Shown here: piece by piece, positions 2,935 to 4,968 of the stretch
Layout: every line of letters starts with the position of its first letter
How positions within the stretch are numbered: the first letter of the stretch is position 1
Assembly: GCA_001816645.1 (NCBI GenBank)
Contig: MHCO01000028.1
Span: forward strand, 13,043-24,019
Direction: 5' to 3'
DNA length: 10,977 nt
From: Candidatus Woykebacteria bacterium GWB1_45_5
GTDB lineage: Bacteria; Patescibacteriota; Microgenomatia; Woykebacterales; RBG-16-39-9b
The notes under the pieces: generated by a model
The model's database searches: none
Told to the model about the DNA's origin: nothing
What the model saw: only the letters and a program-made list of their open reading frames with translations
Program-made: the position numbers and the translations under genes

Positions 2935-3074
2935 CTAACATTACAAATTAGAAAAACCTTCCTTGAAAAGTGGCAAATCAACGAATCCCGCTCTTCCAAT
3001 CGAAAATCCTAACGCCACCACTTTTGGGTAAGAACCCAAATTGGTACATAAACCGCTATACGAGCACGGCGTAT

Positions 3075-3169
3075 TAAAACTAGCAAAAATGTGAGGAGGA
3101 AACGGAAACTGACCCCGATTCTATCGGGGGAATTTCCGAGGATCCCAAAGCATTTTTGCTCTAGTTTTA
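3075..3169. repeat. 95-base imperfect palindrome (long hairpin)
   Basis: The outer arms TAAAACTAG-CAAAAATG (3075-3091) and CATTTTTG-CT-CTAGTTTTA (3151-3169) pair over 17 bp with a two-base bulge. Inside, CGGAAA (3103-3108) pairs with TTTCCG (3133-3138), then CTGA faces GAA. The tip is CCCCGAT (3113-3119) with ATCGGGG (3123-3129) closed by TCT. It could be a small RNA, a miniature mobile element remnant or a DNA-level cruciform. No other copy is in the window. Confidence 0.75.
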
Positions 3170-3199
3170 CAGCCAGCGCAGTCTAGCGGTCGTTTTGGC

Positions 3200-3223
3200 G
3201 CCACCTTTGCGACCAAAGGTGGC
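3200..3223. repeat. Perfect 10-bp inverted repeat
   Basis: GCCACCTTTG (3200-3209) and CAAAGGTGGC (3214-3223) are exact reverse complements around CGAC. It ends 21 bases before the -35 box of the RNA gene. It could be an operator, or a terminator without a T run. A bound protein cannot be named. Confidence 0.6.
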
Positions 3224-3244
3224 ATAATAAATAATACTAGAGGG

Positions 3245-3273
3245 TTGACAAAGGGTTCCGTTTGTGGTATACT
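3245..3273 (+). promoter_or_regulatory. Strong promoter of the structured RNA gene
   Basis: Consensus TTGACA (3245-3250), a 17-base spacer and TATACT (3268-3273). This is the closest match to a housekeeping-sigma promoter in the window. Transcription would start near 3280. Confidence 0.8.
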
Positions 3274-3292
3274 TTTTAGCGTCTTTTGACAC

Positions 3293-3321
3293 TTGACATT
3301 CCTTACGGATTGTCATAAATT
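3293..3321 (+). promoter_or_regulatory. Possible second promoter, or 5' hairpin, of the RNA gene
   Basis: A second TTGACA (3293-3298), 17-base spacer and TAAATT (3316-3321) would start transcription near 3328. The same bases form a hairpin in the longer transcript: TGACA-TCC with GGA-TGTCA around TTAC (3294-3315), with one T-T mismatch. Either reading is possible. Confidence 0.35.
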
Positions 3322-3687
3322 CCCTTTGTACTTTGAAAGTTGAGAGAAAAGTCCTGCGGGGCAATTTGGGTTTCAATTTCGCTTGGAGCTTAGGTTGTCC
3401 TTCGGGACCCCAGCGGTGCGCGGAGACCACCTCCAGGCTGTGTAATGTCTGGACAGTTGACCGCTCTCAGCTTGTCTCGGCTTCTCGGCCAAAAGCGGGG
3501 TCGCAGAGCGAGTGGGCCGTTGGGTCAAAAAACAAGAGCAGGTGGCGGGGTTGAGGCGTTGGACTTCTCAAAAGGTCGATAGAGGTTCGATTTCTCACTT
3601 CCACCGGCTCGCAGCTGGAGGGCAAGTGTGTCCCGGTCCGTTTCTCCTACGGACGTCCGGCGACTCTCCTCCAGCTACTGAACTACC

Positions 3688-3729
3688 ACCGGCAGTTATG
3701 GCCTTCGAGCTTCTGCCGGTTTCTCTTTT
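3688..3729 (+). terminator. Intrinsic terminator of the structured RNA
   Basis: Eight-base-pair stem ACCGGCAG (3688-3695) with CTGCCGGT (3713-3720) followed by TTTCTCTTTT. It points in the plus direction and abuts the dinB stop codon (3730-3732). It has no T run on the minus strand, so it would not obviously end dinB transcription. Confidence 0.8.
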
Positions 3730-4968
3730 CTAGTTAAGTTTTCTGTGTTTCAAACCCGATAAAGTTGCGGGCACCACACTGTCCTTGCCGAATTTTGAGC
3801 GTAAGTAGTCGACTCTTTTTTCCAGCTCCAATCTTTTCTCCCTCACCCTATCAAAAAGATTAGGTTGGAGTGTCTGACACTTGGCCTCAACTTTTGAAAC
3901 GGCGATACCTACTAATCGAAGCGGAGTACAACCATCCCAAAGTTCTTTCAATAATATTTCGCCCATTTCATAAATTTCTTTTGTCAAAGCTGTAGAGTAG
4001 GGAAGCATCCGTTGGCGGGAAACAGTCCGAAAGTCGCTGTAACGAATTGTGACGTGAACGCAGCGGCCAAAATAGCCCTCGCGCCTCATCTCTTCACCAA
4101 CTTTTTCGGTAAGATATTGAAGCATCGCCAAAATAAACTTTGGATCAGAGCTATTTTTCGCAAAAGTTTCACTACGGGAAACGGATTTTACTTCGGCCCT
4201 TGGTGAAAACCACAAGTTATCGATACCGTTTGCCGCCTGCCAAAGACTTAAACCAACTTTACCTAGATTTTCTTCGACAAAATCCCGTGGTAGAGAAGCG
4301 AAATCACCAATCGCAATTTCTTTATTTTCCTTTACTATATTACTATCTATCAATATAGTAAGGATTTTTTGACTAGTTTTGTTATTAACGCCTGGTAAAT
4401 CAGTTAAAGGTAGGGGAGCGAGAAATTCTTTTTCCCGGCCAAGTTCGACGTAGGTTAGACCGTCAGGTTTTTGAAAATCAGAAGCAACTTTAGCGCAAAC
4501 TTTTGTCCCTGCAATCCCAATCGAAGCAGTAATACCAACCTCGCGTTCAACATCTTCCTTAATTTTCTTTGCTATTTCGACTAAATCTGGGTAAATTAAT
4601 TCGGTTCCAGAAAAATCTAAAAATGCTTCATCAATCCCAGTTTGTTCTATTTTCGGCGCATATCTAGCGGCAATGGAAAAAACTTGATTTGACGCTTTAA
4701 TATATTCTTCGTAATGACCACCGACGACAATCGCTTCCGGGCAAAGTTTCAAAGCTTGAAAGAGAGGCTGTCCGGAACGACAACCAAATTTTCTTGCTTC
4801 ATAAGAACAAGTAGCGATAACACCCCGAGGGACACTTCGGCCGTGAGGATCAACCCTACCAACTAAAACCGGTTTACCACGCAAGGAAGGATTGAGCTTT
4901 ATCTCAACACTAGCAAAGAAAGCGTCAAGATCCAAATGCATCCAGGAAGGACGGGTATTATGTATCAT
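3730..4968 (-). CDS. dinB: DNA polymerase IV (Y-family translesion polymerase)
   Basis: A 412-residue Y-family polymerase that copies damaged DNA. The palm carries the catalytic acids D13 in HLDLDAFFASVE and D113-E114 in TGIDEAFLDFS; F17 is the expected steric-gate residue. CSYEARKFGCRSG (54-66) is the fingers motif. A helix-hairpin-helix thumb segment begins at LPGVNNKTSQKIL, the little-finger domain follows, and QPNLF (368-372) fits a beta-clamp-binding motif. About ten residues (ILIDSNIVKENKE region, 205-217) seem inserted in the thumb. The ATG at 4966-4968 sits in the second copy of a 14-base tandem repeat; the next in-frame ATG (M10) would leave only two residues before the conserved LDLDAFF. 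No Shine-Dalgarno sequence is visible. It lies downstream of the nuclease gene in the same direction but appears to have its own promoter. I see no LexA box. Confidence 0.95.
   Translation of the reverse strand: MIHNTRPSWMHLDLDAFFASVEIKLNPSLRGKPVLVGRVDPHGRSVPRGVIATCSYEARKFGCRSGQPLFQALKLCPEAIVVGGHYEEYIKASNQVFSIAARYAPKIEQTGIDEAFLDFSGTELIYPDLVEIAKKIKEDVEREVGITASIGIAGTKVCAKVASDFQKPDGLTYVELGREKEFLAPLPLTDLPGVNNKTSQKILTILIDSNIVKENKEIAIGDFASLPRDFVEENLGKVGLSLWQAANGIDNLWFSPRAEVKSVSRSETFAKNSSDPKFILAMLQYLTEKVGEEMRREGYFGRCVHVTIRYSDFRTVSRQRMLPYSTALTKEIYEMGEILLKELWDGCTPLRLVGIAVSKVEAKCQTLQPNLFDRVREKRLELEKRVDYLRSKFGKDSVVPATLSGLKHRKLN
4332..4361. repeat. 10-bp inverted repeat inside dinB
   Basis: TTACTATATT (4332-4341) and AATATAGTAA (4352-4361) are exact reverse complements with a ten-base loop. 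They encode dinB residues 203-213, at the point where the thumb seems to carry extra residues compared with the usual family pattern. The stretch is much more AT-rich than its surroundings. Confidence 0.6.

Follow-up and report, generated by a model that had tools for sequence, protein, structure and literature searches.

Positions 3280-3729 of the window, the analysed stretch of 10,977 nucleotides (G000:C28:13043-24019, where G000 is the source genome), probably carry a real and new structured RNA gene that acts in trans. We put the probability of this reading at about 0.78. The promoter, the fold, the compensatory changes in two helices named P2 and P3, the position next to dinB and the lack of an Rfam match together point to a non-coding RNA gene of about 400-450 nucleotides. 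Our reading is a large non-coding RNA that evolves fast and has a lineage-restricted distribution. The first-pass annotation had proposed a candidate new large structured RNA at this place, and the missing Rfam match and the compensatory changes in P2 and P3 support the proposal.

Patescibacteria have small genomes and are mostly uncultured. To our knowledge, few structured RNA families seem to have been described from them, and among the papers listed by full-text searches that reached a minor part of the subscription journals, none dealt with their structured RNAs. The G000 assembly has 882,399 bases in 55 contigs and is 92.5% complete, and a single copy of the RNA unit was found in it by BLAST.

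Transcription signals

The main promoter is the TTGACA-17-TATACT described in the first-pass annotation. It lies at 3245-3273 on the plus strand, has a TG preceding the -10 hexamer and matches 11 of 12 positions. The expected start is near 3280. It is followed on the same strand by a second promoter-like site, TTGACA-17-TAAATT, at 3293-3321 (10 of 12 positions). The hexamers and the spacer of this site are identical to those of the second promoter-like site in the related unit of the genome G003. Between positions 2600 and 4000 of the window, 5 promoter-like sites were counted, compared with a mean of 0.8 (sd 0.9) in shuffled sequences. A TTGACA promoter with a 17-base spacer precedes all four units that occupy the slot beside dinB (in the window, G003, L052 and G004), and shuffles of these four promoter regions gave 0.4-0.9 promoter-like sites.

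At the other end of the interval, a hairpin (3688-3695/3713-3720) followed by TTCTCTTTTC is predicted from the fold as a putative intrinsic terminator at 3688-3731 on the plus strand. It has an 8-bp stem and a 17-base loop and abuts the 3' end of the convergent dinB. The strong terminator claimed in the first-pass annotation was kept in part: the stem and TTCTCTTTTC are there and make a transcript end at this place plausible, but the terminator scanner did not call it, since a 17-base loop is outside the range that the scanner can report.

BoxA elements take part in rRNA antitermination. A boxA-like leader motif of putative function, TGTACTTTGAAA, is located at 3327-3338 on the plus strand. 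Passages of PMC5725501, which are in line with this role of boxA, give the gamma-proteobacterial consensus GYTCTTTAANA. GTACTTTGAAA agrees with 9 of the 11 positions of this consensus, which may not be that of the host. In the G003 RNA the boxA is weaker (8/11 positions), and in L052 no clear boxA was seen. The rRNA leader of G000 was not found.

Predicted fold of the RNA

The minimum free energy of 3280-3729 is -190 kcal/mol, compared with -157 (sd 6.5) kcal/mol for dinucleotide shuffles (z -5.0), and none of 100 shuffles folded as low. The plus strand was also scanned in 37 segments of 400 bases with 25 shuffles each, 36 of them at 300-base steps and one placed by hand on 3330-3729. The three lowest z values (-6.05, -4.66 and -3.92) all belong to segments that overlap the RNA locus; the lowest, 3027-3426, also includes a separate structured element upstream, and the other two segments are nearly identical to each other. 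When the units in the dinB slot were folded one by one, z was -4.96 for the window (100 shuffles), -9.98 for G003 (30), -5.92 for L052 (100) and -4.47 for the G004 unit (100).

The 5' strand of the helix P1, at 3342-3348 on the plus strand, has its predicted partner at 3721-3727 in the U-rich tail of the putative terminator. P2 is a long hairpin at 3351-3408 (3351-3356/3403-3408 and 3358-3376/3383-3401) and is followed by the P3 domain at 3409-3524, whose closing helix pairs 3409-3417 with 3516-3524 (CCCAGCGGU/GCCGUUGGG); both are backed by the fold and by covariation. The inner helices of P3, 3432-3438/3447-3453 and 3470-3474/3509-3513, are predictions. Two further domains are predicted from the window sequence: P4 at 3536-3610, with an inner helix 3558-3568/3581-3591, and P5 at 3613-3676, closed by 3613-3622/3667-3676 and with an inner helix 3637-3641/3649-3653. 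All these elements are on the plus strand. Two helices pointed out in the first-pass annotation were located in P4 and P5: GAGCaGGTGG/CCACCgGCTC at 3536-3545/3601-3610 and AGCTGGAGG/CCTCCAGCT at 3613-3621/3668-3676. The letters of its cUUCGg tetraloop hairpin are present as well, but the favoured fold places these bases in the stem of P2. L052 retains the P2 stem without UUCG.

Relatives found through dinB

When the whole unit was used as a BLAST query across 59 genomes, it returned its own copy in G000 alone (1/59) and missed the form in G003. Relatives were sought through the neighbouring dinB gene, with synteny as the handle. Among 40 genomes searched, 29 had a dinB match; in a scan of contigs, the best 80 of 126 dinB loci were kept. 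The dinB flanks of five family loci (G001, G003, G004, G006 and L052, the last being contig MEZF01000089.1) were inspected beside the window. This led to two relatives, one in G003 and one in L052, which share with the window unit the placement convergent to dinB and the TTGACA-17 promoter. The G003 unit is 991 nt long, compared with 409 nt as folded in the window. In L052 the 3' part is a run of N, and an additional stretch separates P2 from P3. The L052 contig is filed under Candidatus Bathyarchaeota and is probably misbinned; its dinB is 70% identical to that of the window and its gene order matches the family.

In the segment that opens shortly ahead of P1 and runs up to where P3 begins, the window and G003 have 65 of 97 bases in common (pair E 2e-7). 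Between the window and L052, BLAST found no significant match. However, the model R2, built from the window and G003 alone, had its top match across the five loci (66,762 bases) in the RNA slot of L052, with 17.9 bits and E 0.0037; the runner-up scored 13.8. Across 59 relatives, R2 gave matches in 3 genomes at E up to 1. A match in G002 (27.1 bits) was discounted because it lies on the opposite strand of a leader. The model R3 was run across 373 genomes of the class and matched 6 of them at E up to 0.01, including G000, G003 and G006; the three matches outside the family (24.7-27.7 bits) were treated as noise. The large genome scans, this one included, were run with stricter filters, by which weak matches are lost.

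G001 and G006 have dinB with no such RNA adjoining, and no dinB match was found in G002 and G005. Neither R2 nor R3 found a clear copy elsewhere in G001, G002, G004 or G005, so that the RNA may not be universal even within the family. It is clear in 2 of the 7 family genomes compared, and in L052 from another collection. The pattern TTGTCCTTCGGGACCCC, with one mismatch allowed, occurs in 3 of the 373 class genomes (G000, G003 and G130), and by eye the surroundings of the G130 site, which has one mismatch, are unlike the RNA. The same pattern was seen in three stretches of viral contigs, of which two have identical surroundings; by eye the resemblance did not extend further, and we attribute these to chance.

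The dinB slot of G004 (L150:7315-7652) holds a different structured unit of 338 nt with z -4.5, a TTGACA-17-TAATAT promoter and, by eye, a hairpin and a T run at its end. It could not be aligned with the RNA and no similarity was detected, and P2 and P3 with compensatory change were not found in it. The unit was dropped as a proven homologue.

Compensatory changes in P2 and P3

Three sequences could be aligned (window, G003 and L052), one of them without its 3' part. For P2, the pieces were trimmed with knowledge of the R2 match and then aligned with MAFFT by sequence only. Both sides had changed in 13 of the 25 pairs, and 93.3% of the 75 cells were paired. None of 500 shuffles attained any of the five measures. 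When the partner strand was slid by 1-3 columns, 1-3 pairs with changes on both sides were left, compared with 13 in the unslid alignment. With the window and G003 alone the signal was weaker, with 4 of 25 pairs and 29 of 500 shuffles.

The closing helix of P3 was tested as nine pairs of closing strands joined by a spacer. In the three sequences all 27 cells were paired and both sides had changed in 4 of the 9 pairs; four measures were attained by 5 of 500 shuffles each, and the fifth by 51 of 500. The strands were chosen from three separate minimum-energy folds, which favours pairing and, less so, paired change. Compensatory change, the check proposed in the first-pass annotation, is seen in P2 and P3 across three sequences. 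We define the family by P2 and P3 with compensatory change, beside dinB, and this combination was found in the window, G003 and L052. All three sequences retain three G-U/U-G pairs of P2. Since the opposite strand would have A-C mismatches at these places, the kept pairs point to an RNA that is read from the plus strand.

Folding predicts P1 for both the window and G003. Full shuffles gave a P1-like closure in 19 of 120 cases for the window and 1 of 24 for G003; with the interior alone shuffled, the figures were 88 of 120 and 22 of 24, respectively. With MAFFT, the P1 strands could be aligned with an indel in place of paired changes. Given these closure rates and the indel, P1 was dropped as proof of the architecture; a closing helix P1 is suggested, not proven.

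Known RNA classes

When the window was compared with the 4227 families of Rfam 15, no match reached the gathering score, and at 3280-3729 no significant match to RNase P, tmRNA or another class was found. A lenient search of the window gave four sub-threshold matches (E 2.7-8.9) to viral, DnaX, human and spliceosomal families, which make no sense here. At E up to 1, Rfam had no match in L020, L021 and the slot of L052. The covariance models of OLE, ROOL and GOLLD did not match at the locus, and ARAGORN found neither a tRNA nor a tmRNA there. The by-eye judgement of the first-pass annotation that RNase P, tmRNA, SRP and 6S RNA do not fit is supported by these scans.

The models of RNase P class A (RF00010) and tmRNA (RF00023) had no match at the RNA locus. 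An RNase P class A candidate was found at G000:C39:8595-8978 with 72.9 bits and E 1.2e-22, below the gathering score of 100, and a tmRNA copy at G000:C52:43273-43629 with 130.7 bits. The SRP models RF00169 and RF01854, for which 11 and 6 of the 14 control genomes were positive, gave nothing at the locus and nothing in the 10 genomes of the order (G000-G009). Since they match none of these genomes, the SRP RNA of the lineage is unplaced, and it may be unusual; the exclusion of SRP here rests on the missing match and not on locating SRP elsewhere. The 6S models of Rfam had no match in the scans of this region. SRP and 6S are excluded less firmly than RNase P and tmRNA.

Coding potential and neighbouring genes

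Five ORFs of at least 50 aa that overlap the interval, two on the plus and three on the minus strand, were tested and have no Pfam domain, in agreement with the earlier statement that the interval codes for nothing recognisable. ORFs of 73 aa are present at 3333-3554 and 3512-3733; a protein search with the former found no homologue. The longest sense ORF among those listed for the G003 unit has 91 aa and no Pfam domain. The convergent neighbour dinB, encoding DNA polymerase IV (Pfam IMS), lies at 3730-4968 on the minus strand, and the convergent arrangement is also present in G003, L052 and G004. The neighbours within the window that could be named by Pfam are ordinary chromosomal genes.

On the other side of the RNA, a remnant resembling the C-terminus of MazG was seen at 2941-3009 on the plus strand, with E 8.4e-4 and 61% over 23 residues. 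At the corresponding place before the RNA, the MazG frame of L052 is full (Pfam MazG). A near-palindromic repeat of the AAGGTCCGACCTT type occurs in two copies at 2832-2860 and 2904-2942, and also in G002 (L145:1054-1090).

A similar leader next to FemAB genes

The R3 match in G006 (G006:C19:224-293, 38.4 bits, E 1.3e-7) lies within the 5' leader of another transcript. This leader has a TTGACT-17-TATAAT promoter and a boxA-like motif, and is followed by an ORF of 55 aa without a Pfam domain and then by a convergent gene of the FemAB family. The window and the G006 leader agree at 63% over 90 aligned positions (pair E 0.001). The match is a real signal, but it is located in the leader of another transcript. 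This speaks against P2 as the sole defining feature of the RNA and allows boxA and P2 to be read as an antitermination site. Two kinds of transcript may share a leader made of boxA and a P2-like hairpin.

The pattern TGNWCYTTGAAA was searched in 22 loci. It was present in the window (likewise in a duplicate locus of the window) and in the FemAB-adjoining leaders of G001, G003 and G006, the last through two loci; among the loci searched it was absent from the G003 RNA, L052 and the G002 leader. Corresponding FemAB-adjoining transcripts were seen at L166:1-800 (G006), L156:1400-2050 (G002), L171:700-1500 (G001) and, for G003, in the first 1200 bases of the minus strand of L170. These loci have a promoter-like leader, a boxA-like motif (weak in G002), a small ORF, and hairpins that hold a Shine-Dalgarno-like AAAGGAGGTGA, for which G003 has the variant AAAGGTGGTGA. 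No Rfam match at the gathering score was found in these transcripts.

Alternative readings

That the RNA is a divergent form of a known large class (RNase P, tmRNA, SRP, 6S, OLE, ROOL or GOLLD) is very improbable. The SRP RNA is unplaced in the ten genomes of the order, and GGTTCGATTTC in P4 resembles by eye the T arm of a tRNA, but Rfam offered just the four sub-threshold matches to unrelated families, RNase P and tmRNA lie on C39 and C52, ARAGORN was negative, and in G001 and G006 the RNA is not beside dinB. We give as little credence to a coding or decaying stretch, be it small proteins, debris of mobile elements or debris of a broken mazG. The compensatory changes in P2 and P3 argue against it, as does L052, where a full MazG frame and the RNA stand side by side. 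Two ORFs of 73 aa and the mazG remnant would fit such a stretch; however, no Pfam domain was found in the five ORFs, and the ORF at 3333-3554 has no protein homologue.

An unlikely reading, though one to be taken more seriously, is a unit that acts in cis, in which boxA and P2 would be an antitermination or attenuation leader that acts mainly on its own elongation or, by convergent transcription, on dinB. The convergence with dinB in the window, G003, L052 and G004 is consistent with this. So is the G006 leader, where a promoter, a boxA-like motif and a downstream small ORF accompany the R3 match, such that boxA and a P2-like hairpin may form a common leader module. However, the next gene is convergent and not downstream on the same strand, conservation extends beyond P2 to P3, and 400-1000 nt of structure exceed what a leader needs. 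The terminal hairpin may also halt transcription ahead of dinB. We prefer the reading as a trans-acting RNA gene.

Possible function and comparison with known systems

As a gene of its own, the RNA would be transcribed from the main promoter and, since this promoter is near-consensus, would be abundant. The boxA-like leader could let the RNA polymerase traverse the untranslated structured stretch, and transcription would end at the terminal hairpin (3688-3731). The RNA is predicted to fold into a multi-helix junction, P1 to P6. Other members would have gained arms, as in the 991-nt form of G003 and in the extra stretch between P2 and P3 of L052. An architecture that is kept while the sequence is weakly kept and arms are freely gained fits a structural RNA, either a protein scaffold or self-assembling, more readily than a sensor of small molecules or an RNA with a conserved catalytic core.

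Passages of PMC12286853 describe OLE, ROOL and GOLLD as large, extensively structured RNAs whose sequences are not highly conserved, with stems supported by covariation and a poorly understood function. The window RNA is likewise large, with much secondary structure, a weakly kept sequence and covarying stems. It differs in that it and its relatives have no Rfam match, that the length of the family varies more than twofold (409 versus 991 nt) and that its Pfam-named neighbours are ordinary chromosomal genes. With a boxA-led rRNA operon it shares a strong promoter, a boxA-like motif and a long structured RNA, but it is not rRNA and the putative boxA is weaker in the two relatives. RNase P RNA and tmRNA have a similar length (models of 367 and 374 positions) and a compact fold, but both are encoded elsewhere in G000 and neither model matches the window RNA. 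We regard it as a new family among the loosely known large structured RNAs.

From its architecture, we tentatively consider a role as a scaffold or assembly RNA, comparable in a loose sense to OLE, ROOL and GOLLD though belonging to none of these families. Still more speculative is a new class of expandable RNA assemblies of small-genome Patescibacteria. In such RNAs P2 and P3 would be the constant core, with P1 as a possible closing helix, and arms added by individual lineages would bring the length from about 400 to about 1000 nt. Transcribed under Nus-type antitermination, they would work as a scaffold of RNA alone or of RNA and protein, with no counterpart among described RNAs. In genomes of about 1 Mb, an RNA that can reach 1 kb is costly and hence probably useful. 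Since its sequence changes fast while the architecture is kept, similarity searches miss it, which suggests that synteny-led searches would reveal more such RNAs.

A separate and very strongly folded element was observed at 3013-3223 on the plus strand, just upstream of the promoter. No relative of it was found among the loci compared. The fold of 3010-3240 has a z of -8.98, reached by none of 200 shuffles, with helices nested around 3082-3091/3151-3160 and a perfect 10-bp hairpin at 3200-3223. Positions 3033-3043 of this element are exactly complementary to 3362-3372 within P2.
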